Shown: positions 12,734 to 61,234 of the stretch, in pieces
How the letters are laid out: each line of letters starts with the position of its first letter
Numbering within the stretch: the stretch's first letter is position 1
Virus record (IMG/VR): IMGVR_UViG_3300036761_003567
Coordinates: 1 to 64,000 of that record
Direction: 5' to 3' (one strand)
Length of the DNA stretch: 64,000 nucleotides
Source of the DNA: a virus
Notes under the pieces: model-generated
The model's input: the letters and a program-made list of their open reading frames with translations, nothing else
Databases searched by the model: none
What the model was told of the DNA's origin: nothing
Translations under genes and position numbers: made by a program

Positions 12734-13363
12734 TTAGTCTACGCGAGGCATTACAATGCCTCGCTGATTTTGGTATTTACCACCTTTCCTTGCGTAATCT
12801 TTCTGCGGTTTGTATCCTCGGAAGAACAGGATCTGTGCGATGCCCTCCATCGCGTAAATCTTGGCCGGAAGCGGAGTCGCGTTGATGATCTCCACGACGA
12901 TCGTTCCGACGAATCCCGGTTCAATTGGGGTAGCATTGACGGCTATTCCGGCCCTTGCATATGTACTCTTGCCGAGGCAGACTCCGATCATGTTGTCTGG
13001 CATGCGGAACCGTTCCACGCTTTCTCCAAGCGCATAGGAATTCGGCGGGATAATACACGTCTTCCCGACGAAATCGACAAAGCAGTCGTCCGTGATCTTC
13101 TTGGGATCGATGATGGAGCTGCGGATGTTAGTAAAGATCTTAAAGTGCTTGGAAATCCTGATGTCGTAGCCATACGAGCTGTAGCCGTAGGAAATGGTGC
13201 CCTTCCGTTTCTCACCCTCCGCAGCCCTGTCTATGAATTTGAGCGCCTTCAGCTCATAATCACAGAGGATGCGCGGGCAGACTTTAGGCCAGGCAGAGAT
13301 CGGTATGGCACCTATCTGCTCCTGCGTCAGCCAGGCCGAATCGTCAGGTTGTCGCCTTCGCAT
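12734..13363 (-). CDS. dcd: dCTP deaminase (dUTP-forming)
   Basis: 209 residues. It converts dCTP to dUTP, feeding dTMP synthesis. Family signatures are clear: 'ISYGYSSYGYDIRI' (substrate strand), 'FVDFVGKTCIIPPNSYALGE', 'LGKSTYARAGIAVNATPIEP' with the catalytic Glu following the conserved 'PIEPGFVGTIVVE', 'PAKIYAMEGIAQILFF', and the C-terminal 'GKYQNQRGI' that closes over the nucleotide. Length fits the trimeric enzyme. It overlaps the upstream gene by 20 bases. Its presence implies control of the pyrimidine pool during infection. Confidence 0.92.
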   Translation of the reverse strand: MRRRQPDDSAWLTQEQIGAIPISAWPKVCPRILCDYELKALKFIDRAAEGEKRKGTISYGYSSYGYDIRISKHFKIFTNIRSSIIDPKKITDDCFVDFVGKTCIIPPNSYALGESVERFRMPDNMIGVCLGKSTYARAGIAVNATPIEPGFVGTIVVEIINATPLPAKIYAMEGIAQILFFRGYKPQKDYARKGGKYQNQRGIVMPRVD

Positions 13364-14034: not shown

Positions 14035-14490
14035 TTAAGCCTTCAAAGGGTTTTCATAGACACCAGGCGTACTGTTTGGGATTATCGTAGCGCCAACGAC
14101 CTTGCCGTAGAATTCCACGGGTCCGACGCCTCCAACGATGCCGTAGACGTAACCCAGTTCGCGCAAGCCGTGGAGGGCGGACAGCAGGAGAGCCCTCCCT
14201 ATGCCGCGCTTCCGATACGAACTGGAGACGCCTTCCGGACCCAGGAAAGCCCTCGCGGTGCATTCATAGGCGCAAAAGCCGCAGACCTTCCCATTGTCGA
14301 TGGCGATGAAGAGAGTCGACGGCTTCAACGAAAAGGCGACAGACGCCTCATCGGCCCAGCCTGGTCCGAAGTTTGACAGAATGAAATGAAGTACGGGCGT
14401 CATCTCGAATGGAAGCGCCCGGCGGATCACGATCCCCTGTACGCGTGGTATCGCCGGAATCTCTAACAGCTTGACCAGCATGTCTGCCAT
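14035..14490 (-). CDS. GNAT-family N-acetyltransferase
   Basis: 151 residues. The acetyl-CoA site is visible as 'SSSYRKRGIGRALLLSALHG' (R-x-x-G-x-G/A) followed by 'LRELGYVYGIVGG' and the terminal 'VEFYGKVVGATIIP' strand. This is the complete GNAT core with a short N-terminal extension. Acceptor unknown; it sits in a metabolic block with dCTP deaminase and the PurZ-type enzyme. Confidence 0.8.
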   Translation of the reverse strand: MADMLVKLLEIPAIPRVQGIVIRRALPFEMTPVLHFILSNFGPGWADEASVAFSLKPSTLFIAIDNGKVCGFCAYECTARAFLGPEGVSSSYRKRGIGRALLLSALHGLRELGYVYGIVGGVGPVEFYGKVVGATIIPNSTPGVYENPLKA

Positions 14491-14500
14491 ACCGTCCGAC

Positions 14501-15775
14501 TTAAATAGTTACGTGAATTTTGTCCGCGGTATTCGGTCCAGTCCCCAGGATGATGCACATTCCCATGTCCGGCCAGTTCGTATCGCTTTTGAAGACGTCG
14601 AGCACGTTCTCTTGCAGCCAGGCCATCACCTTCGGCGTGATGGTACCATCACGCCCGGACAGGGCGTCGTTCAGGCGTATATTACCGCGCCGGCCAGTCA
14701 TATCACCATCAAGATAGTTCACGAAATTGACGGACAGAAAGATCCAGCCGTTCGCGCGGTTGTATTCGATGGATTGCTTGAGATTTTGCTTGGAGAAGGT
14801 GAAGACGCGGCGTGGAAGCTTGGTGACGCTAGTGATCTCCGTAATAGGCGTCGGAGATCCGGAGATCTTGGTGACTTCTTCCCAGGTCGTCTCCACCTGG
14901 TCAGAATAACCTGGTCCGCTGTTATATTTCACGACTTGGTAGGGCTTCCCCTCCTTCTCGTACTTCTGGACCTCGTCCCACGTCATGTGTCTATTCCCGT
15001 CCAGATACTTGTTGCTGTTGATCCGGATCGGATAAGTCCTGAGGTTAATGATGACGTTCCCGGCATAATGGACCGGGAGCATCATGTCATCCAGTCCTGC
15101 CGCCGTCGTGCAGTTCCGGGACGTCGTGAAAGGGAACATTTCGGCTAGGAGGTAGGACAACTGGAAGCCCTGCGCGATTTCCAGGAGTCCAGACTGTCCA
15201 TCCTTCAGCCTTTGTATGATCTCACCTGGCACGTCGCATAGGAATTGCTTCAGCTCCGGAATGTCCCTCGCGTACTTGGCTTCCTTGCGCCGCAAGACTC
15301 GCCTGGCGCGACACGCGCCGGCGCCATGGGCGGTACTGCCCGCCTTCATGGTCCCGTCGTGCTTCTCTGTGGGGAATCCTTCAAAATCCAGCACGCCGCG
15401 CTCGAATCCGGAGTCGATGTCCTGGAGGATGGCCGCGACCGGACTAATCCCAAGCTTGTGCGGGGGTACGTTGTTCTCCTTGATCTCTCTGAACAGGGCT
15501 GGCAGCTCGATGATCGCCCCCGGGCCGATGTAGAGCTTCTCGTACTTGTCGACCATGTAAGCACAGCTGTTGAGTGTCTGGTAGAAGAACTTCCGGCCGT
15601 CGTCCAGCTTCACCCAATGGCCCGCCTGCGGAGCGAAGGCATTACAGGCAAATTGCCAGTTCTTGGCATATTCGCAGAGATGAGATCCCAGTACGCCCTT
15701 CCCCGAGCTCCCAGCCTGACCGTCGAGCAGGACCGTGAGCTCGCCAGGACTAAAAGCGAATGATGTGTCGAACAT
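14501..15775 (-). CDS. adenylosuccinate synthetase family, PurZ-type (candidate 2-aminoadenylosuccinate synthase)
   Basis: 424 residues from ATG at 15775, with AGGAGG 6 bases upstream. The P-loop reads 'LLDGQAGSSGKG'. Aligned with the PurA signature G-Q-W-G-D-E-G-K-G, the catalytic base Asp is replaced by Ser, the change described for the phage enzyme PurZ, which makes the diaminopurine (Z) precursor from dGMP and aspartate. 'FAPQAGHW' keeps the catalytic His of 'GGHNAGH', and 'GFQLSYLLAEMFPFTTSRNCT' matches the PurA 'EGAQG..LD...P..T.S..T' block with divergent residues. The C-terminal region contains 'VNFVNYLDGD', corresponding to the 'TKLDVLDG' base-binding segment. It lies in a nucleotide-metabolism operon. 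Substrate is inferred from the Asp-to-Ser change and not proven; ordinary PurA activity would be unexpected without the Asp. Confidence 0.7.
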   Translation of the reverse strand: MFDTSFAFSPGELTVLLDGQAGSSGKGVLGSHLCEYAKNWQFACNAFAPQAGHWVKLDDGRKFFYQTLNSCAYMVDKYEKLYIGPGAIIELPALFREIKENNVPPHKLGISPVAAILQDIDSGFERGVLDFEGFPTEKHDGTMKAGSTAHGAGACRARRVLRRKEAKYARDIPELKQFLCDVPGEIIQRLKDGQSGLLEIAQGFQLSYLLAEMFPFTTSRNCTTAAGLDDMMLPVHYAGNVIINLRTYPIRINSNKYLDGNRHMTWDEVQKYEKEGKPYQVVKYNSGPGYSDQVETTWEEVTKISGSPTPITEITSVTKLPRRVFTFSKQNLKQSIEYNRANGWIFLSVNFVNYLDGDMTGRRGNIRLNDALSGRDGTITPKVMAWLQENVLDVFKSDTNWPDMGMCIILGTGPNTADKIHVTI

Positions 15776-15783
15776 CGCGCCTC

Positions 15784-16113
15784 CTAGAATGATTTCTGCA
15801 ACCAGGCAACTGGGACCCAAATCAGAACGTTCCTCTTCCCCCGCCTTACCCTAATGCGCGCGTGGGCATAATCCTTCTGTATGACGGTTGCTGGCTCCAG
15901 GTTCAGCTCGTGGCCCTTATTGACGACGTAGACTTGCTCATTGACCAAGAAACGCGGAATGATCACTCTCCGTTTCTCGTGCCTTATGAAGACGACTTCA
16001 AAGAAGAACCCCTTCAAGCATGAGACACAATCCACCTGGAATGAGCGCTTTTCCTGTTGCTCGCTCTCCAGCTCGTTTTCTGTTCCGCAGTAAGGGCATC
16101 GAACGGTTTCCAT
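15784..16113 (-). CDS. zinc-ribbon protein
   Basis: 109 residues. 'RCPYCGTENE' and 'VDCVSCLKGF' form a treble-clef or ribbon-type C4 zinc site. The rest is a basic beta-rich region ('KRRVIIPRFLVNEQVYVVNK', 'DYAHARIRVRRGKRNVLIW') that looks like a small SH3/OB-like barrel. Directly upstream of the PurZ-type gene (8-base gap). Nucleic-acid binding is likely. Confidence 0.65.
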   Translation of the reverse strand: METVRCPYCGTENELESEQQEKRSFQVDCVSCLKGFFFEVVFIRHEKRRVIIPRFLVNEQVYVVNKGHELNLEPATVIQKDYAHARIRVRRGKRNVLIWVPVAWLQKSF

Positions 16114-16116
16114 TAC

Positions 16117-16878
16117 TCATAACTTTTCTGTCTGATCCGGCACTTTCGCTTCTTGGGCAGATTCTTGCTTCGGAGCGAGAGGCTGTGCAGGCTGGTTCTG
16201 GATCTCCTGAGCCATTCGGAGAATGGACCGGGCCTGGTCCAGCGACACGCCGATCCTGGTTACCCCGGGGATCTTCAGCAACGCCGTCACCTTCTGGCAC
16301 TGCTCCCGCGGGTCCTTGGGGAGTCCGCAGACCTTCACGAGATTGGGCGCGTCGGCTCGGACCCTCTCCACGGCTGCGACGATGGCTGTGAGGGCAGGCA
16401 CGATGACGAGGCTCGTCTCCAGCCTCACGAGGGCGGGCCGACTGAATTTGAATTCCTCGCAGCAGGCCTTGATCTCGGCGTCGTTCCGATTGAAGATGCC
16501 CAGGACGAACCGAATCTCAGCAAGCGGGTTGTATCTCTTGATGAGGTCCGTGATGGCCCGGATCTCATTCTTGCAGTTGGCTTCGCCTCTGTTGGCGCTT
16601 AGGACGATTTCGAACCCATCTGCCTCGAACGCGTCCTGGGGGACGTCCCGGAGCTTGTCCAGCGCAAACTCCCTTCCGGCAGGAAAATCCACCGCCGCCA
16701 CGATCCTATACTGTCCGTCCCGAGTCGATTTGTCGACGATAGCCGCTTGGACGGCGGTCGGCGGTACCATGACGGCCTGACACCGATTTTTTGATGCGAA
16801 CATACCCGCATCGACCAGTTCCCGCTGGTTCAAGCCGCCGACCTCGATCTCGAGCTTGGACGTGATCTGGATCGTCAT
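16117..16878 (-). CDS. deoxyribose-phosphate aldolase-like TIM-barrel protein
   Basis: 253 residues from ATG at 16878 (ATGA overlap). The order resembles DeoC: 'NRCQAVMVPPTAVQAAIVD' (C.aV.v.P..V), 'QYRIVAAVDFPAGREFALDK' (v..v.gFP.G....K), 'ADGFEIVLSA' (GA.EiD.V), 'AEIRFVLGIF' (k.I.E), and C-terminal 'NLVKVCGLP' (vK.sGG). The strand that normally bears the Schiff-base Lys (vKTSTG) reads 'LVRLETSLV', so that Lys appears replaced by Arg. It may be an altered or non-catalytic aldolase. It is paired with a nucleoside deoxyribosyltransferase-like gene, consistent with deoxyribose/nucleoside metabolism. Confidence 0.55.
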   Translation of the reverse strand: MTIQITSKLEIEVGGLNQRELVDAGMFASKNRCQAVMVPPTAVQAAIVDKSTRDGQYRIVAAVDFPAGREFALDKLRDVPQDAFEADGFEIVLSANRGEANCKNEIRAITDLIKRYNPLAEIRFVLGIFNRNDAEIKACCEEFKFSRPALVRLETSLVIVPALTAIVAAVERVRADAPNLVKVCGLPKDPREQCQKVTALLKIPGVTRIGVSLDQARSILRMAQEIQNQPAQPLAPKQESAQEAKVPDQTEKL

Positions 16879-17513
16879 TTTTGCCCTTTCTGCGGCATCC
16901 AGGTCAAGAAAATCCACTTCTTCGGATCTATTGGCCGATTGCCTTCGTTAATATGTCTCACGGCCGTCAAGAGCTGATCCTCGTTCGGGAAGAAGACGTC
17001 ATCCATGTCGCTGATCTTATCTACGAACATCGACACCAGCCACATGGATGGGACGCCGTCAGGACAGATGAACATGACGGGGGCGCCGGCCCTGGACAGG
17101 AGCGCCAGCTCTTCAAACGTCCCCACCGTGAATGGGCTCTTGGGCAGTCGGCAGATACACCAGTTTGTCGCATGGACCATCCGAAGGCAGACGTCCCTCT
17201 GAATATGCATGTCCTGGAGAGCCGCCTCGGCTTCGCCCTTCTCCGTTTCCACTTCCGAAGGCGGGACCAAGCGGCCCACAAAATTTGAACAAACCCTTGG
17301 CGTGCCAGGTCGACAAAAGAATTTCTCGTTGATGTCTGCCTGCGGCCGACGACCTCGAGGGCCGACCCATTCCGGCTTGACGAGGGGGTTGAGGACGATA
17401 ACGTCCATCCCGGACAATTCCTGCGTCAGCCGACTGCGCCATTCAGCTGCGTGAGGGTCCGCCTCCACAGGTCCACCTAAGTATACTGTCGTCCCGCTTA
17501 AAATACCCATCAT
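16875..17513 (-). CDS. nucleoside 2-deoxyribosyltransferase-like protein
   Basis: 212 residues. N-terminal 'TTVYLGGPVEADPHAAEW' is the Rossmann-like opening of the NDT superfamily ('iylaGP..'). 'MHIQRDVCLRMVHATNWCIC' supplies the conserved Asp strand, and 'TVGTFEELALLSRAGAPVMF' contains the GT..EL motif whose Glu is the usual nucleophile. Known members exchange bases on deoxyribonucleosides or hydrolyse them. Coupled by ATGA to the aldolase-like gene. The start (MMGIL) overlaps the stop of an HNH gene. Confidence 0.7.
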   Translation of the reverse strand: MMGILSGTTVYLGGPVEADPHAAEWRSRLTQELSGMDVIVLNPLVKPEWVGPRGRRPQADINEKFFCRPGTPRVCSNFVGRLVPPSEVETEKGEAEAALQDMHIQRDVCLRMVHATNWCICRLPKSPFTVGTFEELALLSRAGAPVMFICPDGVPSMWLVSMFVDKISDMDDVFFPNEDQLLTAVRHINEGNRPIDPKKWIFLTWMPQKGQK

Positions 17514-22196: not shown

Positions 22197-23990
22197 TTAG
22201 CGGGCCTCCACGATCTTCGAGAACCCGCCTTCCTTGATGACCTTGATCTTGGAGGGGAAGGCATCCCTCATCTCGTCCTTGTGGGAGATGACGAAGACGG
22301 CATCCGGCCGGTTCTGGTTGCCCTTCTTGACGAAGTCCTTCTCGATGACGTCCACGAAGGCCTGGACGCCGACGGTGTCCAGCCGGCCGTCGACTTCGTC
22401 CAGTACCATGACGTTGCACTGGATGCCGTAGATCGCCACATAGAGGTCATAGAGGGCGAACATGACCGCGAGGTCGATCCGCTTTCTCTCGCCTCCGGAG
22501 CAGTAGTCATAGTCCCATTTGCTGGTCGAGTCCTGGAGCGTCGGAGTGAATTTCAGGTCGAACTCGCAGCCGAAGGCCTTCAGATAGTATCCGACGCGCT
22601 CGTTGAGGAACGGGACCAGGTCGCCCAACATGAAGCTCTTGAGCTTCTTCTTGTCGTTATAGGCGTTGAAGATGTACTGGAGATGACGCAGGAGGATGTT
22701 GTATTTCTTGACCTGGTCTGTCTGATCCTGGACGGTGGTCTCGCCGAGGCGGATGCTCGCCTCGCCGCGCTTGATCATGTCCCCGTAAGGATTCTGTTCC
22801 GTCTGGATGCGCTTGATCTCCCCGCCGACTCCCTCAATCTGCTGTCGGATGCGCTCGATCTCCCGGCAGACGGCCTCCGCCTCCGCCACGGTCTGCTTTG
22901 GACCGGCACTTTCAACCTTCTTCCGGGTTATTTCGATGAGGCCATCTATGCGAGCGACTTCCTTCTGGAGAGCGTCTATCTGGCCCTGCAGCTCTTGCTT
23001 CTTGCCAGAGAACGGCTCGCAGACGCTGGCGACGTGATCCTTGCCAATAGCTTGCTTACAGCTTGGACACGTCGTGCCAGCTTTGGCCTTCCAGGCAGAC
23101 TCCTCTCCAGCGATCCTGCTTATGTCCCTGCCGAGGCTGAATACGAGGGCAGCCTTCTTCCGCTTCTCTGTTTCGTATTCGCTTAGCTTGTCCTGGATCT
23201 TCTCGATGACGGCCCACTGCCGCTTAAGCTCGATGACGTCGGGCGCCTGCTTATTCAGGAGTTCCGACTGGAGGGCCTTCTTGCGAGCCTCGGCCTGCGA
23301 GACACGCGAAGCGCAATCCTGTTCCCACTTAGCTTGATCCGCTCGTCTGGCCTTTATCTCCTCTTGCAAGCGAACAAGCTCTTGCTGCTGGGAGTCCAAA
23401 GCCACGGAAAATCTGGCCTGCTCTATCTCGCAGGCAGAAATCTTCTCCTTGGCGACCTCGGCCCAGACGTTGATACGATGGAGGTTGAAGACGCGCTCGA
23501 GGATGGCTCGGCGCTTCGCATCCGTCAGCTCCAGGAAGGACTTCCCGAGCTGCCCGAAGAAGACGCAGCTGGTGAAGATCTCGAAATCCAGACCGAAGAG
23601 CTTGATGACATACTTCTGGGTATTTTCCGTAGTGGACTGCGTGATGTCCGCGCCATCCTTGGCGATGGATAGCTCGGCGACTCCCTTCGACTTCCGGGTC
23701 CTCGTGATGACATATCCGTCCACCGTCTCTATTTGGACGAAGCAGTCCTTCCCGGTGAACCAGTTGATGACTCCGTCGCCAGGACGATCCTTGTTGATGG
23801 TACGCCCGAAGAGACACCACAGGATGGCCGCGGCCAGGGAGGACTTACCCGCCCCGTTGGAGCTTCCTTCCTCGTCGCCCAGCTTCTCGCCGACGATAAG
23901 GGTCGGTCCGAGATCAGCCACTTCAATGCGGCTGATCTCGTCTCCGTAGGATAGGAAGTTTTTGAGCTCGACGCTCTTGATACGGATCAT
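22197..23990 (-). CDS. SbcC/Rad50-like recombination endonuclease subunit (gp46-like)
   Basis: 597 residues. ABC-ATPase head split by a coiled coil: Walker A 'GSSNGAGKSSLA' near residue 41, zinc hook 'TCPSCKQAIG' in the middle, ABC signature 'CSGGERKRIDLA', Walker B 'VMVLDEVDGRLD' and a switch His ('VISHKDEMRD'). It pairs with the SbcD/Mre11-like nuclease to process DNA ends for recombination-dependent replication, as gp46/gp47 do in T4. Short coiled coils compared with cellular SbcC are normal for phages. Coupled by ATGA to the metallo-beta-lactamase gene upstream. Confidence 0.95.
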   Translation of the reverse strand: MIRIKSVELKNFLSYGDEISRIEVADLGPTLIVGEKLGDEEGSSNGAGKSSLAAAILWCLFGRTINKDRPGDGVINWFTGKDCFVQIETVDGYVITRTRKSKGVAELSIAKDGADITQSTTENTQKYVIKLFGLDFEIFTSCVFFGQLGKSFLELTDAKRRAILERVFNLHRINVWAEVAKEKISACEIEQARFSVALDSQQQELVRLQEEIKARRADQAKWEQDCASRVSQAEARKKALQSELLNKQAPDVIELKRQWAVIEKIQDKLSEYETEKRKKAALVFSLGRDISRIAGEESAWKAKAGTTCPSCKQAIGKDHVASVCEPFSGKKQELQGQIDALQKEVARIDGLIEITRKKVESAGPKQTVAEAEAVCREIERIRQQIEGVGGEIKRIQTEQNPYGDMIKRGEASIRLGETTVQDQTDQVKKYNILLRHLQYIFNAYNDKKKLKSFMLGDLVPFLNERVGYYLKAFGCEFDLKFTPTLQDSTSKWDYDYCSGGERKRIDLAVMFALYDLYVAIYGIQCNVMVLDEVDGRLDTVGVQAFVDVIEKDFVKKGNQNRPDAVFVISHKDEMRDAFPSKIKVIKEGGFSKIVEAR

Positions 23991-24856
23991 GTGGTTGGGA
24001 AGTCAAATTCCTGTCCACGCGTGACGAAACCCAGGAAGCCATCGGCCTTCGGATCCTGCGTCGGCTTCGGCTGATAGTGGTACAGCCACATCTTCTTCTT
24101 GATGTCAGAGTGGAGCGTCTTGAGGTCATCGTAATGAGCGTGGACCTTGGAGTAGTAAGGCGCCGTCTCCGTGTCGTGGAAGATGAGGTCAGCAGACTGG
24201 TAGAACTTCGTGATCTGGTTCGGGCAGAACTGCGTGTCCGTCGTGAAGAAGATCCGTGGACCGAACACCGCGTATTCAGCCCCACGAAGCTCTTTCAACG
24301 AAGAAATACTAGGAATGTTATTCTGGTCGACAATACAGCCGGTCGCCATTCTGTGCTTGCATTGCTGAATCATGAGTCCATAGCTGTGTGTGATCTTGAA
24401 GCCACTCATGATGTGGACTGTCTGGACCGGCGTGAACAAGATGCCTTCCCATACGAAACTGCTATTGATCGGTACCGGGTGGCATTCGAAGTAATCGGTG
24501 ATGTTCATCACCTTCTCTTCGAGGCTCTCGAGCCCACCGCACAGGCTGTGTTCCCAGAGCTCCTTCATGAGCTCCGGGACGCAGAAGAGAAGAGGCCGTG
24601 GATCGCCCGGCTTCTTGGTGAAGTAGCGGACGAACGCCAGATATTCCATCCCGCCGATGTGGTCTGCGTGGAGGTGCGAGATATAAGCGGCATCGATGTT
24701 TCGCGCGTCCAGACCCAGCTTGCCCAGAGCGAACCGAATGTCGCTCCCGCAGTCGATGAGCAGCCTCTTACCCGAGGCAGCCTGCACGATCGCGTTGGAC
24801 TGGAAGTACTCTTCCGTCGTAAACGCGCTACCGCATCCCGCAAAGGTGAGTTTCAT
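23987..24856 (-). CDS. metallo-beta-lactamase-fold nuclease/phosphodiesterase (RNase Z-like)
   Basis: 289 residues, starting MKLTFAGCGSAFTTEEYFQS. 'AYISHLHADHIGGMEYL' is the zinc-binding HxHxDH motif, with downstream ligands likely at 'FTTDTQF', 'LIFHDTE' and 'VHAHYDDL'. The overall layout is that of RNase Z/PDE-type MBL hydrolases, not of beta-lactamases or glyoxalases. Lying between gp46- and gp47-like genes suggests a role in DNA or RNA processing during replication. Start chosen at 24856, just past the neighbour's stop. Confidence 0.85.
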   Translation of the reverse strand: MKLTFAGCGSAFTTEEYFQSNAIVQAASGKRLLIDCGSDIRFALGKLGLDARNIDAAYISHLHADHIGGMEYLAFVRYFTKKPGDPRPLLFCVPELMKELWEHSLCGGLESLEEKVMNITDYFECHPVPINSSFVWEGILFTPVQTVHIMSGFKITHSYGLMIQQCKHRMATGCIVDQNNIPSISSLKELRGAEYAVFGPRIFFTTDTQFCPNQITKFYQSADLIFHDTETAPYYSKVHAHYDDLKTLHSDIKKKMWLYHYQPKPTQDPKADGFLGFVTRGQEFDFPTT

Positions 24857-24857
24857 G

Positions 24858-25925
24858 TTAGTCCTCGCTGATTTGGACGCTGATCCGTTCCTCTGCCTCT
24901 GCGATGATCTGCGCATTCAACTTGGCCAGGATCTTGTAGTTCAAGCCTTCCGGCTTCTCCTTCTCCAACCATCTCTCTAGGAGCTTCTCGGGGGTCTTCA
25001 TGTCCACTTCACTCTTGCGGGCGGCCTCGATCTCGACATCCTTCTCTTTCGGTCTGATCCAGCTGACACCAAGAGCCCCACGCTCCCGGGCCATCTTGTC
25101 CAGCTTGGACAGGTCTTCCTTGGTATAGTCCTTCGTGAGGATCAGCCTAACGTTGTTCCCCTTGAAGAACTCGGGAGGCTTCTTGTCGGCATCGGCATCC
25201 AAGACCGTGAGATAAAGGGGCGGCGGCTCGCCTTCCGCACCGATGGACCGGATGTTGATGAACTCCCACTTCATCTTGTCCGTGTCGCAGACGATGAAGC
25301 CGTGCGGGACGAGCCCCTCATCGAACCTGAACGCGACCGGGCTTCCGGGATAGGTGATGTTCCCGACCGTCTGATGGCAGTGAAAGTGGCCCGCAAAGGC
25401 GAGGTTGAATTTCGTCTTATCGAAGTTCACGAAGGACCAGTTCTTTAGCAGGAAGCATTCGTTCAGCTTCGCGCCGCAGACGCCGATGTGCGTCAGGAGG
25501 ATGTCGTCCGACTTGATCTTCTTCTCGACAGCGGCGAGCTCCTTCATGTACTGCTGCTCGTCGTAGATGAAGGGGATGATCCAATACTTGCCGCCGACTT
25601 TCTTGATGGATGGCTCAATGGTAACGAGGGATGAGAGCGATCTTAACGAATGAATGTCCCAGGAATTCTTCAAGAACATGTCGTGATTGCCAGGGAAGGC
25701 AAGCCATGACAACTGCTGGCTCTCTTCTTCCTCGAAGAATGCGTGAACGGCGTTGAGGACCTCAATGTTGAGATTGACACGGTCGTGAAAAAGATCCCCA
25801 AGGATAAGGACGTTCTTGATTCCCATCCGAATGGCGTAATGGCGAATAGCCCGCGCCGCCCAGAGCGTATAGCTCAGCTTCCGGGGGACTCCCGCGTGCC
25901 AATCCGCCGTTATGATGACCTTCAT
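24858..25925 (-). CDS. SbcD/Mre11-like nuclease subunit (gp47-like)
   Basis: 355 residues. Calcineurin-like phosphoesterase motifs in order: 'ADWHAG', 'LGDLFHDR', 'FPGNHDMF', 'LLTHIGVCG' and 'AGHFHCHQ', giving the di-manganese site. The C-terminal part is an extension for the ATPase partner. With the gp46-like protein it forms the end-resection complex. Overlaps the small gene upstream by ATGA. Confidence 0.95.
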   Translation of the reverse strand: MKVIITADWHAGVPRKLSYTLWAARAIRHYAIRMGIKNVLILGDLFHDRVNLNIEVLNAVHAFFEEEESQQLSWLAFPGNHDMFLKNSWDIHSLRSLSSLVTIEPSIKKVGGKYWIIPFIYDEQQYMKELAAVEKKIKSDDILLTHIGVCGAKLNECFLLKNWSFVNFDKTKFNLAFAGHFHCHQTVGNITYPGSPVAFRFDEGLVPHGFIVCDTDKMKWEFINIRSIGAEGEPPPLYLTVLDADADKKPPEFFKGNNVRLILTKDYTKEDLSKLDKMARERGALGVSWIRPKEKDVEIEAARKSEVDMKTPEKLLERWLEKEKPEGLNYKILAKLNAQIIAEAEERISVQISED

Positions 25926-26158: not shown

Positions 26159-28972
26159 ATGAGCATCACAGACGCAGACATCCAGGCGAAATTCCCATTC
26201 TCCCAGTTCCGGCCTGACCAGCTCGAGGCCGTCCGCCTCACGCTTGACCAGTTCGACAAGGGCAAGAAGTTCGTCATCATCGAGATGCCCGTAGGCGGTG
26301 GCAAGTCCGCCATTGCCTATTCCGTCGCCCAGTTCTTTGCCAATTCCTATTACCTTACGATCCAGCGCTTCCTCCAGGACCAGCTCATGGGGGACTTCGG
26401 CCAGCCGCCCAGAGATGGCCTCCTTCCGATGGTGGACCTGAAGGGCCGCGGAAACTACCAGTGCACCCATGCCCAAAGAAACGCCTTCGCTCTCGTCCGG
26501 GGACTGCTTTCGTCCCTCGGCCATCCCGATACCATAGCAAAACAGGTAGCGGAATACTTCGTCAAGAATCGGAACTTCGAGGGCCTATCCATAAAGCTGG
26601 ACTTCGACGCCGTCTCCAAGATCGTCGAGATGGTCGAGAACAAGCCGGGCTGCGATAAGGGAGTCTGCCGGACTCGGGACGGCAAATCCAGGTGCAAGGA
26701 CTGCTTCCCGAACGGCCTTCCAGCGCTGTGTCCTTATTGGGCTAGGAATGCCCAGGCCCAAGCCGCCCAAATCTGCCTCATGAACTTCCGGGTGTTCCTC
26801 CACCAGACGGTCCTGACGAACGCCTTCGGCCACCGGGATCTGATGATCGTGGATGAGTGCTTCCACCCGCACACGAATATCGTAACCGACAGAGGAAGAA
26901 TCCCCATCGGCAAATTAGTGAACAAAAGAATTGATTGTTCTGTACTGTCCTATAACAAAAAGCTTCAAAAGCTCGAATTCAAGCCAATATCCCGCTTCTT
27001 AAAACGAGGAAAGCGACCAACTTTTAAAGTGATTGCCGGGAACAGGGTGATGTACCCAACAGCAGACCACAAGATCCATACGCCAAATGGCCTCAAGAAA
27101 CTCTGCGACCTTCGTGTCGGCGATTTGATCATCGTAAACGAACCAGAAATCTCCCACACACAACAACAAATCCTCCTTGGATCGTTATTAGGTGATGCGT
27201 CAGTACAAATAGTCCCATCGAAAAGGAAATCGTGGAAATATGCCCCCAAAGGGGCAAGAGCCCGAGTTCGATTCGTCCACAGCTCAAAACAGCTTACTTT
27301 CCTGCGTTGGAAGTACAATATTCTGAAGGAACATGTAAATACTGGCCCCAAGATTTTTAAAAGTAAGGGGTTCTCAAAACGTGTCGCACGATTCAACACA
27401 AAGTGCAACATGTTTGAACAAATTAAAGTCGTAATCCGGAACCACAAGAAAACTCCCAACAAAGCATGGTTCCAGAAAATAGAAGACCTTGGATTGGCTG
27501 TATGGTTTATGGACGATGGGTCTTGCAACAGAAACACAATCCACCTTCACACAGAAGGATATACCTTACAAGAAAATCGAAAAATTGCCTTCTGGCTGCG
27601 GGAAACTCTCGATATCCCAGCTAAGGTTCTGTCATACTGCAAGCGCGACCATGTGCTGTACTATATTACGCTTGGTAGAAGTGGCAGCAGGATCTTAGCA
27701 CAAAAGATAGCCAGGTTTATACCACCATTCATGCGATACAAGCTACCCAGTGGACAGTGGGATCCTTATAACCCAGAACTGGAAGTCAAAAGATCAAAGC
27801 CAGTTAGCGCACAGCCCGTCTTCTCTATTAACCCATACAAGGAAACTGTCACGTACGATCTAGAAGTAGCAGACAACCATAATTATTTTGCCGGTTCTAG
27901 CCTCGTCTCCAATTGTCATCAAATGGAATCGGAGCTGATGAACTTCATCGGCTTCAGCCTGAATGACAAGTCGCTCCGAGAATACGGCATCGTCCTGTCC
28001 GAGATGGGCTCCGCCGCCGAGTACGCAAGGTTCCTGAAGGATAAGGACATCCTGGCCGTCATCGAGAACATACTGAAGATGGCGCGCGCGGCCGGAGACC
28101 TTGAGAAGGAAGACGAGTGGATGGACATCGAGAGGCGGTGCGGGCACTTCCTCGCAACGGCCGAAGACGGTAACTGGGTCGCCCTCTTCAAGGATACGGA
28201 CCAGAGGAAGAAATACAAGGTCATCTGGAACACGGTAGAACTCAAACCCGTCTATGTCCGCAAGATGGCCCACGACTTCGTGTTCAACAGGGCGGACAAG
28301 GTCCTCATGATGAGCGCCACGGTCCTGTCGGCGAAGACGGTCTGCTCATCCCTGGGGATCGAAACGAATGACATGTACGCCATCCGGTACGGAAGCCGCT
28401 TCCCCGTCGAGAACCGCCCGATCTTCTTCACGCCGGTAGGTTCACTCAGCTATAAGAACAAGGCGGAGACCCTGCCCAAGATCGTGCCGGCCGTCGACAA
28501 GATCCTGAATAAGTATAAGGGCAAGAAGGGCATCATCCACACGCACAACTTCGAGATTGCCAGGTTGCTGATCAGCGAGTGCGAGACCAGGGACCGCATG
28601 CTCTTCCAGGAGGATTTCGAAAACAAGAAGGAAATGCTCAAGGAGCACGCCGAACGCGAGGACTCCGTAATCGTAGCTCCCGCTATGCACGAGGGGCTGG
28701 ACCTGAAAGACGAGCTCAGTCGCTTTCAGATCATTGTAAAGATGCCGTACCCGCCGATCAAGGGAAACCCACAGCTTGAAGCCCGGATGCAAGACTCGCA
28801 GGAATATTATGACTGGCTGACGGCTCTCAAGCTGGTCCAGGCAACGGGCAGGTCAGTGAGGTCAGAGACGGACTGGGCGCACACTTATATCCTGGATGCC
28901 GATTTTGAATGGTTCTTGCGAAAGGCTCGTGGAATTCTGCCGAAGTGGTTCAAGGAAGCGATCAGGACCTAG
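26159..28972 (+). CDS. DinG/XPD-like SF2 helicase interrupted by an intein
   Basis: 937 residues as encoded, about 585 after splicing. Walker A 'EMPVGGGKSAIAYSVA'; a cysteine-rich region between motifs ('GCDKGVC', 'SRCKDCFP', 'CPYWAR') that looks like the Fe-S cluster of XPD/DinG helicases; the Walker B/DExH box (IVDE|CHQ) is split by the intein. Later motifs: 'VLMMSATVLSA' (motif III), 'KGIIHTHNFE' (IV) and 'LVQATGRSVRSETDWA' (VI). Likely a 5'-3' DNA helicase. The ATG at 26159 is used because the longer frame from 26096 would overlap the divergent gene; there is no strong Shine-Dalgarno. Confidence 0.88.
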   Translation: MSITDADIQAKFPFSQFRPDQLEAVRLTLDQFDKGKKFVIIEMPVGGGKSAIAYSVAQFFANSYYLTIQRFLQDQLMGDFGQPPRDGLLPMVDLKGRGNYQCTHAQRNAFALVRGLLSSLGHPDTIAKQVAEYFVKNRNFEGLSIKLDFDAVSKIVEMVENKPGCDKGVCRTRDGKSRCKDCFPNGLPALCPYWARNAQAQAAQICLMNFRVFLHQTVLTNAFGHRDLMIVDECFHPHTNIVTDRGRIPIGKLVNKRIDCSVLSYNKKLQKLEFKPISRFLKRGKRPTFKVIAGNRVMYPTADHKIHTPNGLKKLCDLRVGDLIIVNEPEISHTQQQILLGSLLGDASVQIVPSKRKSWKYAPKGARARVRFVHSSKQLTFLRWKYNILKEHVNTGPKIFKSKGFSKRVARFNTKCNMFEQIKVVIRNHKKTPNKAWFQKIEDLGLAVWFMDDGSCNRNTIHLHTEGYTLQENRKIAFWLRETLDIPAKVLSYCKRDHVLYYITLGRSGSRILAQKIARFIPPFMRYKLPSGQWDPYNPELEVKRSKPVSAQPVFSINPYKETVTYDLEVADNHNYFAGSSLVSNCHQMESELMNFIGFSLNDKSLREYGIVLSEMGSAAEYARFLKDKDILAVIENILKMARAAGDLEKEDEWMDIERRCGHFLATAEDGNWVALFKDTDQRKKYKVIWNTVELKPVYVRKMAHDFVFNRADKVLMMSATVLSAKTVCSSLGIETNDMYAIRYGSRFPVENRPIFFTPVGSLSYKNKAETLPKIVPAVDKILNKYKGKKGIIHTHNFEIARLLISECETRDRMLFQEDFENKKEMLKEHAEREDSVIVAPAMHEGLDLKDELSRFQIIVKMPYPPIKGNPQLEARMQDSQEYYDWLTALKLVQATGRSVRSETDWAHTYILDADFEWFLRKARGILPKWFKEAIRT
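26858..27913 (+). mobile_element. LAGLIDADG intein in the DExH box
   Basis: 352 residues, from Cys (CFHPHTNIVTDRGRIP) to '...VADNHNYFAGSSLVSN', followed by +1 Cys (CHQMESE). Splicing joins ...IVDE to CHQM... and restores DECH. Block B is 'TADHKIHT' (conserved His). The endonuclease domain carries two LAGLIDADG-like motifs ('LLGSLLGDAS', 'GLAVWFMDDGSC'), and the C-terminal His-Asn is present as 'NHNYF...SN'. Both splice residues and endonuclease acidic residues look intact. AT-richer than the extein. Confidence 0.95.
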
Positions 28973-29254: not shown

Positions 29255-29503
29255 TTATCTCATCCCAACGTCGTACCACTTGCCGTTAAACAAGAAGACA
29301 ATTAGGCCACTACCACCGGCGGTGCCCCCGCTCTCGAGAGCGGGGATCATCGTGAACCCCTGCCCCTGGAGATCCGTAATAGACTGCGGAAGCGGCTTGC
29401 CATCCGCCTGAGGAACCGTCTCTGCCAGCGTATCCCCTGCGACGGGGTACTTCGCGTCCTGAATGGACTCAAAAGCCTCATTCAGCTTTTTCGCGAAGTC
29501 CAT
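29255..29503 (-). CDS. small paralogous protein B
   Basis: 82 residues starting [20 protein letters not shown] and ending GKWYDVGMR. The helical N-terminus is shared with the adjacent copy; the tail is Gly-rich. Its start lies inside the end of the fucose-synthase-like gene (26-base overlap). Function unknown. Confidence 0.6.
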
Positions 29504-30428
29504 TTTGCACCTCATACCATTCCAGGGTCTTCTTAAGACCGTCATCGAACGTTGTCATAGCTTTGAATCCGAACTCCTCCTCGGCCCGGGTCGTATCCAG
29601 GCAGCGCCGCGGCTGGCCGTCCGGCTTGGTCGTGTCCCAGAAGATCTCACCATCAAACCCGACGAGGTCCCTTATCTTATTGACCAAGTCGAATATCCGA
29701 ATCTCGAAACCCGCCCCGATATTCACCGGTTCCGGCTTGTCGTACAGATCCGTGGCTAGGACGATGGCTCTAGCGGCGTCCTCGACATATAAGAATTCCC
29801 GCGTTGCCGTGCCAGTTCCCCAGATAGTAACCACTGACTCCTTCGCCGCCTTTGCCTCTACGAACTTCTTGATCAGGGCCGGAATGACGTGAGACGATTC
29901 CGGATTGAAGTTATCACCTGGACCGTACAGATTAACGGGCATGAGAAAGATCGCATTCAGACCATATTCCTGTCGATAAGCCTGGGACTGCACAAGAAGC
30001 ATCTTCTTGGCCAAACCATAGGGTGCATTCGTCTCTTCCGGGTAGCCGTTCCAGATATTTTCCTCTTTAAACGGGACCGGCGTGAACTTGGGATAACAAC
30101 AGATTGTCCCAAGGGCTACGAGCTTCTCGATGCCCGCCTTGCGGCCCTCTTCTATTATGTTAGCACCCATCATCAGGTTATCGTAATAGAACTTCCCTGG
30201 ATGGGCCTTGTTAGCGCCGATGCCGCCTACGACGGCCGCAAGATGAATGACAATGTCGGGCTTGGAGTCGTTATAGAGCTTCTTGACTGCCTCGGGATCA
30301 ACAAGATTATAGTTCTTGCTGCGGGGTACGAAGAGGTGGCAGCCAGCCTTCTCGAGCTCACGCCCTACGTAGCGCCCAAGAAACCCGCTGCCTCCCGTTA
30401 CCGTAACCCTCTTATGTTGTAGGCTCAT
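29478..30428 (-). CDS. GDP-L-fucose synthase-like NAD(P)-dependent epimerase/reductase
   Basis: 316 residues. Extended SDR: '[20 protein letters not shown]' (NAD(P) glycine-rich loop), '[15 protein letters not shown]', '[20 protein letters not shown]' and the catalytic 'YGLAKK' Tyr/Lys pair, ending with sugar-nucleotide binding residues. The CYP...P segment and '[15 protein letters not shown]' match GDP-L-fucose synthase (reduction/epimerisation of GDP-4-keto-6-deoxymannose). It supplies an activated deoxysugar for one of the neighbouring glycosyltransferases. Confidence 0.9.
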
Positions 30429-31033
30429 GTAGATCCGGAGCCCCCAAACGACGGCAGGACAGGGAAATCGCTCTGACCCGTCGGATTATAGGCCACGACG
30501 ATATGCGAGGCCTCTGTAATGTAGAAGGCGTCTCCGGACTCGATCCTGGCCCTTATTCCCTTCTCTTTGATATATACCTGGAAGATGCCGTTCGATCCGT
30601 CAACGATGTAGGCAAGAATGCTACCAAAGGGGATGTTCAGGTAGGTTTCTGCCCTAGAGACGGCTATAAGAGCCTCGTCGTTGTCATAGAACAGGAAACC
30701 GTCTCGCCACACGTCAGTCACCAGGATCTCGTTCGTGGACGACATGCGCAAGAAAGTGACGATCTCGCCGGTCTGGGGAACATAAGTTCCCTCGCCGGCT
30801 ATGCTTATCGTCTCGACCTTGCGTAGATAATCGAAGAGGAAGTTCCCGCGAACCTCCAGCCGCGAATTGTAGTTCAGGATGTCCTGATCCGGCGACGAAA
30901 CTTTTGCGATCTCAAGGTCGCGCAGGCTTGAAAGCAGAAGGGGACAGAAGGCGCTTATGAACGACTTCGCGCGGGACTTCACGCTATACCCGACGTCGGC
31001 TATTGCTTCCATGTTATTAGCTTTGATACTCAA
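30425..31033 (-). CDS. hypothetical protein (possible baseplate/fibre-associated)
   Basis: 202 residues. The N-terminus is helical, the central two-thirds beta-rich ('[20 protein letters not shown]', '[20 protein letters not shown]') and the tail is Pro/Ser/Gly-rich (SFGGSGST). Coupled to the fucose synthase gene by ATGA. No family recognised. Confidence 0.55.
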
Positions 31034-31043
31034 AGTTTAAGAA

Positions 31044-31955
31044 ATGGATCATTATAAGAACCTCTTCTACGAGCGGATGATCGGCTGGAAGCCGGCCCAG
31101 TTCGGCAGTCGCGTCCACACCGTCTTCAGCTGCACGGATACCCTCTATCAGTACTGGCAATGCGAGCTTCTAGCCTATACTTATCGAAAGGTGGGCCAGC
31201 CAGGGCCTCTCACCCGCCTCGTCTCAACCAACAAGGAAGTAAAATACCCGTTCTCGGAGAAGACGTTCAAAGCGACTGACTATAGCATCCATCCGCGGTC
31301 CGGCGACAAGTACCTGGCCTACAATAAGCCATCCGCACTCATGGAATGGCTAAAGCAGGCCAAGCCCAAGGAATCCACCATCGTCGTCATCGATCCGGAT
31401 TGCGTGTTCCTCTCCAAATACGTCGGCGAAGCACTACCGGGCAAGCCAAAGGCAGCTTATTACTGCTATATGGAGCCGGGAGGCGACTTAGGTAAGTTGC
31501 TGATTTCCAGACATTGCCGGAGGAACAAGGAACTGGTCCAGTCCGTAGGCATCCCCGTCGTCATCCATAGGCAAGACCTCGAAATCGTCGCGCCAAGATG
31601 GCTGGAGGTAACCCGGGAAATCCGCGATGACAAGGAATGCCATAATGCCGTCGGCTGGATCGCCGAGATGTTCGGCTATACGATTGCCGCCGCGGAGGCC
31701 GGACTGAAAGGTGACGTAAAGCGGCTGTGCGTCTTCCCACCCGAAGATTCAGTGGACGCACCTTTCATGCATTATTGCGCCGCAAGCGAGAACGAGGCAG
31801 AGGGCTTCATGTGGCACAAGGGAATCTACAAGCCCTGGGAGCAGCCTCCGATGCCTCCTCCGGGTAGCCCAAAAGCAACCCTAGTCCTTGCTCAGCTCTT
31901 GAAGGAGGCTGCAGACGTTTATGGCAACGCAGCAGGCGTGGGCGTCCCCGTCTGA
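31044..31955 (+). CDS. glycosyltransferase resembling plant Hyp/Ser O-glycosyltransferases (HPAT/SERGT type)
   Basis: 303 residues. 'VHTVFSCTDTLYQYWQCELL' followed by 'AYTYRKVGQPGPLTRLVS' reproduces the diagnostic N-terminal block of hydroxyproline O-arabinosyltransferases and peptidyl-serine alpha-galactosyltransferases (h.T.fs....Y..WQ...l...frk.gqpGp.TRL.S). 'VVIDPDCVFL' is the DxD site and 'WIAEMFGYTIAAAEAGLK' matches the conserved 'W.aEMyg...gaa...l'. In plants these act on extensin-type proteins. The phage acceptor is unknown, with fibre or host surface protein possible. The end overlaps the convergent GT2 gene by 37 bases. Confidence 0.7.
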   Translation: MDHYKNLFYERMIGWKPAQFGSRVHTVFSCTDTLYQYWQCELLAYTYRKVGQPGPLTRLVSTNKEVKYPFSEKTFKATDYSIHPRSGDKYLAYNKPSALMEWLKQAKPKESTIVVIDPDCVFLSKYVGEALPGKPKAAYYCYMEPGGDLGKLLISRHCRRNKELVQSVGIPVVIHRQDLEIVAPRWLEVTREIRDDKECHNAVGWIAEMFGYTIAAAEAGLKGDVKRLCVFPPEDSVDAPFMHYCAASENEAEGFMWHKGIYKPWEQPPMPPPGSPKATLVLAQLLKEAADVYGNAAGVGVPV

Positions 31956-32761
31956 ACGACCGGCCCAAGGGCTTCCTTCACCACTTGCATGACCTGCTCG
32001 CGCGGGACGAATTCCGAGAAATGCTCGACGACTGGCGCAATATCCAACCCAAGCTCGGCATGTCCGATGACGTAATTGTAGAGCTTGTCTTCGATCCGGA
32101 CTGGATAACTCATGCCGTGCGGCCTATTAAACCTGTGCACCCACTTTAACCAGGGCATGCAAAGACACTTCCGACCCGCCTGTCTAAACTTCTCGTGAAT
32201 GTAGCCTTCCTCGCCGCCGAAGCCCCTGAACCTCGGATTGAAGCCGAGCCACGCAGATTTCTTGCAGGAAAAAGCGCCCATCCCCTGCATCGGGATCTCT
32301 TTTACGGCGCTGTCCAAGTTGTCTACGTGAACGCTATCACTCCAGATGCCCCACATCTCGCCACGCCAGACGGGATTGAAATGCGTCGCCACATATTTCA
32401 AGTCATCGTAAAGCAGAGGACCTTGAATGAGATCCTTACACTCCGGATTTGCCTCGTAGAAGGCCTTCAGACTTTCTATGGCCCCCGGCGGGAAGAGGAC
32501 GTGGCAGTCGCAGCAGAGTACAAAGTCGCCCCTGGCTTCCATAAAGACAGCGCCCTTCGCAGCCGCGGGGCCAGACCTGTTCATCAGGCGCATATATCTG
32601 CCGTCGACGCTCTTGACGAAGTTTTCCGTCGTCTTGCACCCGTAGCTGTCGATGACCAGAATCTCCGTATCCTTCAGGTTCTGATACATCCGGAGGGCCA
32701 TGATAGTGAAGAAGACGCCGTCATAATCGTCATAGACCGGGATGCCTATCGTCAGCTTCAT
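31919..32761 (-). CDS. GT2-family glycosyltransferase (GalNAc-transferase-like)
   Basis: 280 residues. N-terminal 'LTIGIPVYDDYDGVFFTIMA' is the GT-A opening; 'GDFVLCCDCHVLFPPGAIES' is the DxD-like metal site (D-C-H variant), followed by 'NPRFRGFGGEEGYIHEKFRQ', the 'GGeE....' acceptor-side motif seen in polypeptide GalNAc-transferases and related GT2 enzymes. Start ATG at 32761 would overlap the probable true end of the upstream collagen-like gene as ATGA. Confidence 0.8.
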   Translation of the reverse strand: MKLTIGIPVYDDYDGVFFTIMALRMYQNLKDTEILVIDSYGCKTTENFVKSVDGRYMRLMNRSGPAAAKGAVFMEARGDFVLCCDCHVLFPPGAIESLKAFYEANPECKDLIQGPLLYDDLKYVATHFNPVWRGEMWGIWSDSVHVDNLDSAVKEIPMQGMGAFSCKKSAWLGFNPRFRGFGGEEGYIHEKFRQAGRKCLCMPWLKWVHRFNRPHGMSYPVRIEDKLYNYVIGHAELGLDIAPVVEHFSEFVPREQVMQVVKEALGPVVQTGTPTPAALP

Positions 32762-35748: not shown

Positions 35749-36030
35749 ATGCTTGGATGGTTATGGCGAAAGATAGTGGGGCAGCCAAGGCCTCTAGAGG
35801 TCAAGCTGACGCTCAATATTCCGCAAGGCGTCATCCACGTGAGGCATCACTTTGATAGAGAAGGATCCGCGGCTCAAAAGGCAGCGATACGACCAGGACC
35901 TGGGAATTCCCAAGGATCTATGGCCGATCCTTCTGCCGGAACCCGCGCGGAAGACTTGCCGATCGAATCGCTCTTCAAAGGCCAGAACCTCCCCGAAGTC
36001 CAGCTCGGCCAAGACACCGACGGCAAGTAA
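35749..36030 (+). CDS. small hypothetical protein overlapping the actin-like reading frame
   Basis: 93 residues starting MLGWLWRKIVGQPRPLEVKL, 1 base after the previous stop. Its second half shares bases with another open frame (from TTG 35852) that continues into the actin-like gene. Its first 35 residues look genuine; the C-terminal part may be a frame artefact. Either overlapping genes or a frameshift. Confidence 0.4.
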   Translation: MLGWLWRKIVGQPRPLEVKLTLNIPQGVIHVRHHFDREGSAAQKAAIRPGPGNSQGSMADPSAGTRAEDLPIESLFKGQNLPEVQLGQDTDGK

Positions 36031-36262
36031 GCCAGCACCAATAAGTATTTCAGATCCGATAACAAGAGCCCTGAAAGCCGAGGGCTGGACTCCTGGGAAT
36101 CTCAAGGTCATAAAGGACAGACACTTCGTACCGAAAAGCAAGATCGTAAAGGACAGGGAGAGGCAGGAACTCGTAAAGAAGACGGCTTATCTGATCACGA
36201 AGCCGCCGAGAGGCTTTGCAGAATATCAGAAGAACGTAGAGACCATTTTCAGGAGCGGTACG

Positions 36263-37267
36263 ATGGAACGCCTAGGACTTGATATGGGGACGAAGAACAT
36301 CGTCCTCGCCTATAAGAAGGACGGGCAGGTCTGCTTCCGTCGAGAGGTCAACGGATTCATTTCCGTGGTCAAGCAGGATAACTTCACCAAGGAAATGCTC
36401 GTCCAGTCGCAGGTTCCCTTCATCGAGCGGGACAAGGACTTTATCGCCATCGGCAGCAAGGCGGAGGACCTGGCCTACTCGTTCGGTAAGGAGCTCCAGA
36501 GACCGATGGTCAATGGAGTGCTCTCGGTCACTGAGCGGCAGGCGATGTCCATCATGGGCGTCATCGTGAAGTCCATCATCGGGAAGCTCAACGACGACGC
36601 CATCCTGTGCTACTGCATCCCAGGCCTGGCTATCAACCAGGACGTGAACGTCGACTTCCACAACAAGGTCATCCAGGCGATCCTGGCGTCCTTCGACGTC
36701 AAGGTCAAGCTCAAGGGAAGCTCGATCAACGAGGCACGCGCCATCGTCATCGCCCGCTCGCCGGACAAGGACAAATCCGGGATCGGCATCTCTTGCGGCG
36801 CCGGGATGATCAACATTTGCTACTGCCTCTTCGGCATTCCGGTCTACGAGTTCTCAATCGTCGGGGCCGGCGACTGGATCGATAAGGAATCCGGCAAGGC
36901 AACGAACGAGAGCCCCACGGCCATCGCCAAGGTCAAGGAGTCGCCAGAGACGCGGCTGGATGGCGGGATGCCCGCGGACTTCGTCCGCAGGGCGATCTTC
37001 CTGAACTACACGATCCTCATCGAGAGGATCGCCAAGAGCATCGCCGAGGGCTTCCGCAAGAACGAAGGCAAGGCCAGGGCGCCGAAGCCCATGCCCATCT
37101 ACATCGCCGGCGGGACTGCCTCCGTCGGCGGCTTCCTCGCGCTCTTCAAGGAAGTCTTCACGAAGCAAGAGATGCCGTTCCAGGTCGGCGAGATCTCGCT
37201 CGTGGACAAGCCGCTCTACGCAGTCGCCGAGGGGTGCCTCATCGCAGCCGAGAAGCACGAGGGATGA
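36263..37267 (+). CDS. actin-like ATPase (ParM/MreB superfamily)
   Basis: 334 residues from ATG with AGGAG at 7-base spacing. Actin-fold motifs in order: phosphate-1 'LGLDMGTKNIVLAY', phosphate-2 'GIGISCGAGMINICYCLFGI' and adenosine loop 'IYIAGGTASVGGF'. Such filament-forming ATPases segregate plasmids or, in some phages, position DNA or virions. The same frame is open upstream to 35852 (TTG), encoding a basic proline-rich stretch and 'ITRALKAEGWTPGNLKVIKD', so an N-terminal extension of up to 137 residues is possible; 36031-36262 contains nothing else. Directly upstream of the dnaE locus. Confidence 0.8.
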   Translation: MERLGLDMGTKNIVLAYKKDGQVCFRREVNGFISVVKQDNFTKEMLVQSQVPFIERDKDFIAIGSKAEDLAYSFGKELQRPMVNGVLSVTERQAMSIMGVIVKSIIGKLNDDAILCYCIPGLAINQDVNVDFHNKVIQAILASFDVKVKLKGSSINEARAIVIARSPDKDKSGIGISCGAGMINICYCLFGIPVYEFSIVGAGDWIDKESGKATNESPTAIAKVKESPETRLDGGMPADFVRRAIFLNYTILIERIAKSIAEGFRKNEGKARAPKPMPIYIAGGTASVGGFLALFKEVFTKQEMPFQVGEISLVDKPLYAVAEGCLIAAEKHEG

Positions 37268-51531: not shown

Positions 51532-51854
51532 GCTACTGTGGAATGCGTTTTCCAGGGTCGCCAGGTCTACTTCAAATGAAAACGTGGTACAGCGCCATCT
51601 GTCGCAAATGTGGAGAGGGCGCGCAGATCTTCGTCTCAAATCCGAGCTGTACTATGGCCTACCTTGGAGAGAAGGATAAGGAGATTCAAGCCTTCCTAGA
51701 GAAGCACTTCGGATGTGAGCTCGAGCTCATCTGGCGGGATGACCAACTGGACGCACTCTTCAATTCGGGCTGGAAAGTCAGCATTCTCCCGGGCGTCTGC
51801 CGTTATTTCCGACCGGAAAGTATTTCATCTCCGTGTCCAAGCACGCCTTCGTAA
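51528..51854 (+). CDS. zinc-binding hypothetical protein
   Basis: 108 residues, ATGA-coupled. 'MKTWYSAICRKCGEGAQIFV' with a further Cys gives a partial zinc site; 'FGCELELIWRDDQLDALFNS' follows. The last ~10 residues overlap the next gene (TAATG junction). Unknown. Confidence 0.5.
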   Translation: MSYCGMRFPGSPGLLQMKTWYSAICRKCGEGAQIFVSNPSCTMAYLGEKDKEIQAFLEKHFGCELELIWRDDQLDALFNSGWKVSILPGVCRYFRPESISSPCPSTPS

Positions 51855-61227: not shown

Positions 61228-61234
61228 AGATGAT

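Follow-up and report, generated by a model that had tools for sequence, protein, structure and literature searches.

The characterized Z (2-aminoadenine) genomes in the papers searched belong to small phages of approximately 40–45 kb that carry DpoZ or PrimPol. In the PurZ enzyme of cyanophage S-2L, the residues S23, T273, and Q308 are PurZ-specific and interact with substrates (Czernecki et al., PMC8342488). Arthrobacter and Gordonia phages with a PurZ0 synthetase carry DutZ and DmtZ in addition. DmtZ hydrolyses dAMP and can also move the deoxyribose phosphate of dAMP onto the Z base; the assay used for it was coupled with E. coli DeoC (PMC12884076). Here, we describe a purZ-type gene and its neighbors in IMG/VR virus record IMGVR_UViG_3300036761_003567. 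The window, that is, the whole stretch of DNA analyzed, comprises positions 1–64,000 of this record (64,000 nucleotides), and the full record of 107,223 bases is an incomplete fragment. The PurZ-type active site of the encoded synthetase, its placement in the tree, and the linkage of PurZ with an NDT-superfamily protein and a DERA-like protein were established by computation. The NDT and DERA folds of the two upstream proteins were likewise shown by computation, from structures predicted by a model.

The ORF at 14501–15775 (minus strand, ATG start) encodes a 424-aa homologue of 2-amino-adenylosuccinate synthetase. It matched Pfam PF00709 at 48 bits (cut-off, 27), which makes it a member of the adenylosuccinate synthetase superfamily, and PHROG 1211, "2-aminoadenylosuccinate synthetase" (E value, 5.6e-35). 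The best-scoring model was NCBIfam PurZ NF038379 (143 bits; E value, 8e-42), and the best PDB match was the PurZ of phiVC8 (6fko; E value, 2.5e-23). The Pfam, PHROG, NCBIfam, and PDB matches agree, so that the family assignment is not due to chance. The curated cut-off of NF038379 (300 bits) was not reached. This model covers closer relatives, and the protein was treated as a new PurZ clade and not as a member of NF038379.

The P-loop motif GQAGSSGKG (residues 19–27; codons at 15695–15721, minus strand) carries Ser23 instead of the catalytic Asp13 of PurA. In a 19-sequence alignment, S23 was aligned with S23 of S-2L and Asp13 of E. coli PurA, and H53 with His41 of PurA. The same column is Ser in the enzymes of S-2L, phiVC8, SH-Ab, Ghobes, and HunterDalle. 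Ser was also found at this site in all close relatives whose motif was read and in every non-PurA row of the alignments checked. The P-loop of the window protein has a second change, from Glu to Ser, and the catalytic His in its QAGHW stretch is flanked by changes of Asn to Gln and Thr to Trp. The equivalents of His41, Lys16, Thr129, Arg143, Gln224, Thr239, and Arg305 were all retained in the alignment. At the sites of S-2L T273 and Q308, the window protein has T315 and N353, and Asn at the 308 site is shared with phiVC8 and SH-Ab; the residues of E. coli PurA at the three diagnostic sites are Asp, Gly, and Asp. PurA Arg303, which contacts the ribose 2′-OH, is replaced by Leu, as it is in S-2L and SH-Ab. 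The three diagnostic substrate-contacting residues, together with the tree position, make it very likely that this protein is a PurZ rather than a PurA, its use of dGMP being inferred. The Ser signature alone is no proof of dGMP use, given that a Ser-type gene is also present in two bacterial MAGs, described below.

In a tree of 62 rows, which did not include archaeal PurA rows, the two PurA rows were split off by a branch with a support of 100, and the window protein was located across from them. Its clade consisted of 21 rows with a support of 99, and PurZ0 branched earlier on the PurZ side. The members are the window protein, proteins of 17 metagenomic contigs with 32–65% identity to the window PurZ, Flavobacterium phage MaF61, and two further rows (L134 and L057). 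The window PurZ is therefore assigned to a new PurZ clade, encoded in a new-type Z gene cluster. The window phage is a large tailed phage, and about twenty uncultured relatives of it carry PurZ, on contigs of up to 371 kb. MaF61 is a cultured 168-kb myovirus (laboratory host, Flavobacterium sp. B330) with its PurZ at 14974–16317 of its record (L007). When the text of its describing paper was searched, neither aminoadenine nor PurZ was found to be mentioned. One PurZ ORF of 755 aa (L133:12657–14921) is split by an intein-like insert.

A first-pass annotation, made from the sequence alone, had reported the replacement of Asp by Ser in the P-loop with retention of the catalytic His, which was borne out by the 19-sequence alignment. 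It had also called the enzyme PurZ-type, which the three diagnostic residues and the tree support and with which the PurB and kinase genes near PurZ in relatives agree. Its proposal of a Z genome stands as a hypothesis only. The stronger evidence, provided by the NDT and DERA-like genes that lie just upstream of purZ and are linked to it, had been overlooked there.

Three genes are located upstream of purZ in the same direction. The nearest (15784–16113, minus strand), between the DERA-like gene and purZ, encodes a zinc-ribbon-like protein of 109 aa whose role is unknown and which has homologues in six clade contigs. It is preceded by the gene of a DERA-fold protein of 253 aa without a Pfam match (16117–16878, minus strand), and then by that of a DmtZ-like protein of 212 aa (16875–17513, minus strand), which had a sub-threshold NDT match; the two genes share an overlap of 4 bases. 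Their homologues were identified in 9–10 of the 17 clade contigs, and the gene order was mostly conserved. A GNAT acetyltransferase gene directly after purZ (14035–14490) was considered as a member of the module and rejected, having no relative in the 17 clade contigs.

The linkage was also observed when viral contigs were scanned with an NDT profile, a scan in which PurZ itself plays no part. All 17 contigs detected had an adjoining DERA-like gene, and in 16 of them PurZ was encoded 0.6–4.1 kb downstream on the same strand; in the 17th (370.8 kb), PurZ was located elsewhere in the record. As L125 and L140 are the same phage, the scan represents 16 distinct phages, every one of which encodes a Ser-type PurZ. 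Scanning again with divergent NDT members gave no new contigs. A DERA-like profile brought in two more, L200 (356 kb) and L202 (341 kb), each of which encodes a Ser-type PurZ 0.4–1.2 kb downstream. The PurZ proteins linked to these genes belong to at least three lineages, one of them with an intein-like insert, and had Ser wherever the motif was read. The linkage is not strict in reverse, since no NDT match was found in seven clade contigs and MaF61 despite their PurZ. Moreover, the scan profiles were built from PurZ-linked members, and distant unlinked homologues may be missed. A tblastn search of phage records with the NDT and DERA-like proteins gave no match, and metagenomic contigs were used instead. 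It is also possible that the three genes stay together merely because the phages carrying them descend from a single lineage.

When the PDB was searched with sequence profiles of the NDT and DERA-like families, no convincing match was obtained; convincing matches came from structure prediction and profile–profile comparison. The predicted structure of the DERA-like family had a mean pLDDT of 88, and its 50 best PDB matches were DERAs or designs derived from one (best E value, 1.4e-11). Profile–profile comparison of the family with six DERA sequences gave an E value of 5.8e-6. The site of DERA D102 was acidic in all 18 DERA-like sequences. At the site of the Schiff-base Lys167, 13 of the 18 have Arg (Arg152 in the window protein), four Lys, and one Asn. 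The K201 site is Lys in 15, including the window protein, and Val in three. The three Val-bearing proteins have Lys at the Schiff-base site, so that none of the 18 proteins lacks both lysines. As Lys167 is not conserved as the Schiff-base criterion demands, the family was named DERA-like, and aldolase activity is not claimed. The action of this protein as an aldolase or as a binder of deoxyribose-5-phosphate is an inference that we would, on balance, narrowly bet against.

The predicted structure of the NDT protein (pLDDT, 84) matched NDT-superfamily enzymes with an E value of 1.3e-4, with a TM score of 0.73 by target length for DNPH1. Compared profile to profile, the family matched DmtZ of Ghobes and Arthrobacter phages with an E value of approximately 1e-5. 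Equivalents of DmtZ Tyr6 and Glu103 (Y11 and E135 in the window protein) were present in 18 of 18 sequences, and the site of Asp12, which contacts adenine, was Glu or Asp in all 18. The site of the lid residue Trp124 was Trp in 17 of 18. The Asn77 site, which is Asp in most NDT enzymes, was Cys in 17 sequences and Asp in one. Four of the five key positions of DmtZ are retained, and because the criterion of Asn77 is unmet, the protein is called DmtZ-like and not DmtZ. That it is directed at dAMP is inferred, with the evidence leaning slightly in favor.

No DatZ was detected in the incomplete 107-kb record with PF01966 or PF13023, and MazZ, DutZ, PurB, and a DUF550 helper were not found in this fragment either; the DUF550 search had no positive control. 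The protein encoded at 95899–96510, which had a weak phmmer match to an HD protein of MaF61, proved not to be an HD protein. The DCD at 12734–13363 was rejected as DutZ, since the model it matches is that of dCTP deaminase and a single relative has a homologue of it near PurZ. PurB was identified in the records of contigs L041, L042, L025, L043, and L047 and of MaF61. The gene that immediately follows PurZ encodes a nucleotide kinase in two contigs, an adenylate-kinase-like one in L044 and a thymidylate-kinase-like one in L041. A guanylate kinase gene lies near PurZ in L043, and a related gene annotated as guanylate kinase lies farther off in MaF61.

The replicase gene is DnaE (family C), which was found in 11 of the 25 records examined. 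Its N-terminal part, with the PHP domain and the start of the catalytic domain, is encoded at 37529–38878 (plus strand), and its C-terminal part, with the rest of the catalytic domain, fingers, and HhH, at 41376–43403 (plus strand). In each of these 11 records, DnaE is divided between two ORFs, and the break falls at a similar profile position. In the window, other ORFs lie between the halves, among them a minus-strand ORF (40234–41157) with a weak TnsA-like nuclease match. A family-A polymerase core of 394 aa is encoded at 51833–53017 (plus strand), with the Asp of motif A and HDS in motif C and without a 3′–5′ exonuclease domain. Lacking the exonuclease domain that DpoZ has, it was rejected as DpoZ by architecture, and no full-length DpoZ was found in the incomplete 107-kb record. 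Five other clade records contain related family-A ORFs of 371–395 aa, and DnaE is present in every one of these records; the function of the 394-aa core is unknown.

The earlier annotation was correct in reporting a DnaE polymerase, now resolved as two ORFs, and a family-A polymerase-like protein, but its hint that the latter might be DpoZ is not supported. Its observation that DatZ and MazZ are not visible in the window held and extends to the rest of the fragmentary record. Clustering with PurA or the absence of DatZ and MazZ from the complete genome had been proposed there as grounds for refutation; the outcome is mixed, as the protein does not cluster with PurA, yet neither DatZ nor MazZ was found in the 107-kb fragment.

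Other features of the window were also recorded. A protein with a metallo-beta-lactamase fold, encoded at 23987–24916 between SbcC-like and SbcD-like genes, matched the Anti-Pycsar Apyc1 model at 92 bits (cut-off, 50). An intein-like insert splits the helicase ORF at 26159–28972 and carries a LAGLIDADG endonuclease domain. A 471-aa protein (35852–37267) matched Pfam Volactin at 208 bits (cut-off, 35). Sugar-modifying gene clusters at 29478–32761 and 58239–62221 encode an NAD-dependent epimerase, a hydroxyproline O-arabinosyltransferase-like protein, and several glycosyltransferases.

PurZ-like genes with Ser/Thr/Asn at the diagnostic sites were also found in two bacterial MAGs of alphaproteobacterial type, UBA6503 (994-kb contig) and OFTM141 (L114:9207–11678 and L115:9278–11622). 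The setting is chromosomal, with the gene order cmk-like, PurZ-like, rdgB-like, and rpsA-like, the names being judged by eye. No other PF00709 member, and thus no PurA, was detected in either MAG genome (1.6–1.8 Mb), both of which are incomplete. The enzyme could be a cellular replacement of PurA or could belong to a cell making dZ. These chromosomal genes raise the question of what role the Ser-type enzyme has in cells.

The following mechanism is proposed for the window phage. PurZ would condense dGMP and aspartate, using ATP, to N6-succino-2-amino-dAMP, which PurB (that of the host, or phage-borne in several relatives) and nucleotide kinases would convert to dZTP. The phage replicase would then build dZTP into DNA, replacing some or all adenine. 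The DmtZ-like NDT enzyme would remove dAMP, either yielding adenine and deoxyribose-5-phosphate or transferring the sugar phosphate to the Z base, and its DERA-fold partner would bind or cleave deoxyribose-5-phosphate. This adjacent, co-inherited pair would stand in for the known helpers DatZ, MazZ, and DutZ, none of which was found in the sequenced part. The main reading, that PurZ makes the dZTP precursor and the NDT/DERA-like pair limits dAMP, is considered likely (probability of approximately 0.68), with the enzyme activities inferred. PurZ activity of the synthetase is itself very likely, with dGMP and ATP as inferred substrates, while Z in the virion DNA is a probable inference that remains unproven without base analysis. 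A bolder reading is that DnaE-bearing large or jumbo phages make Z-DNA via a separate, DatZ-free system, made up of PurZ and of DmtZ-like NDT and DERA-fold proteins, the latter two destroying dAMP in two steps, so that a DnaE-type replicase would copy the Z genome; we give this joint claim slightly less than even odds.

Among the rival explanations, the strongest is that dZ nucleotides are made, yet adenine is replaced only in part or Z arises merely as a minor product, because dATP is not strongly removed and DnaE does not select Z; the NDT/DERA-like pair would then serve general salvage of degraded host DNA. It is supported by the failure to find DatZ or a DpoZ-type polymerase, by the DERA-like protein without the classical Schiff-base Lys, and by the seven clade contigs and MaF61 without an NDT match. 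However, every record in which the NDT and DERA-like families were detected also has PurZ, which general salvage would not predict, and the adenine-contacting acid of DmtZ is retained in 18 of 18 sequences; we regard this explanation as unlikely.

A diverged PurA acting on IMP (or GMP) could instead adjust ribonucleotide pools and leave ordinary adenine in the genome. The Ser-type enzyme being the only PF00709 member detected in the two MAGs, in a housekeeping gene order, speaks for this, with the caveat that the MAGs are incomplete. It is made very unlikely by the absence of the catalytic base Asp13, the PurZ-type T315 and N353, the change of Arg303 to Leu, the position of the clade on the PurZ side of the tree, and the linked NDT family, which concerns deoxynucleotides. 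Large phages often hypermodify bases, and a succinylated or otherwise N6-substituted purine might be kept in the DNA, for example with the aid of the GNAT acetyltransferase encoded directly after purZ. This possibility is all but excluded, as the GNAT lacks relatives in the clade contigs and PurB, which removes the succinyl arm, is present in six clade members including MaF61.

If the main reading is true, the range of Z-DNA would grow to include large phages (PurZ contigs reach 371 kb, and many of them have DnaE) as well as a further polymerase family; 2-aminoadenine DNA may thus occur more widely than is known and be produced by a new route. The NDT and DERA-like companions represent a testable new way of nucleotide pool control, and the Z question can be tested directly in MaF61, which is cultured and whose PurZ belongs to this clade. 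No report of PurZ linked to an aldolase gene or of PurZ in DnaE-bearing phages was found in the open-access literature searched; subscription papers, including Tong et al. (2023), were outside its scope.

Compared with the PurZ enzymes of Vibrio phage phiVC8, cyanophage S-2L, and Acinetobacter phage SH-Ab 15497, the window PurZ is alike in Ser, the PurZ-type Thr, Asn/Gln, and the catalytic residues, and its TKLPRR stretch is identical to that of S-2L. It differs from them in sequence (approximately 31–32% identity), in its 424 aa with extra stretches, and in belonging to a separate clade, and the phage itself differs in being myovirus-type with DnaE and in having no DatZ or MazZ neighbors found. 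The PurZ-like gene of MaF61 (PQ858689) is of the same clade, with the Ser-type motif GSSGKG and 34% identity over 95%, whereas that phage has a family-B polymerase, its own PurB, an HD_3 hydrolase, and a MazG-like gene and lacks an NDT match. The PurZ0 phages with DutZ and DmtZ (PMC12884076) resemble the window phage in combining a Ser-type synthetase with an NDT-superfamily enzyme, and the Tyr, Glu, adenine-contacting acid, and lid Trp positions of DmtZ recur in the window NDT family. The window synthetase is not PurZ0-type, having Asn and not Asp at the 308 site and a different tree position; its NDT companion has Cys at the Asn77 site, and a DERA-like protein is present instead of a dUTPase-type DutZ. 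Compared with DERA (DeoC), this protein shares the fold, the acid at D102, and the Lys at K201, but it has Arg for the Schiff-base Lys167 and is too distant in sequence for Pfam. The DmtZ and DeoC pair of the published assay (PMC12884076) corresponds to the same two folds that these phages encode side by side.
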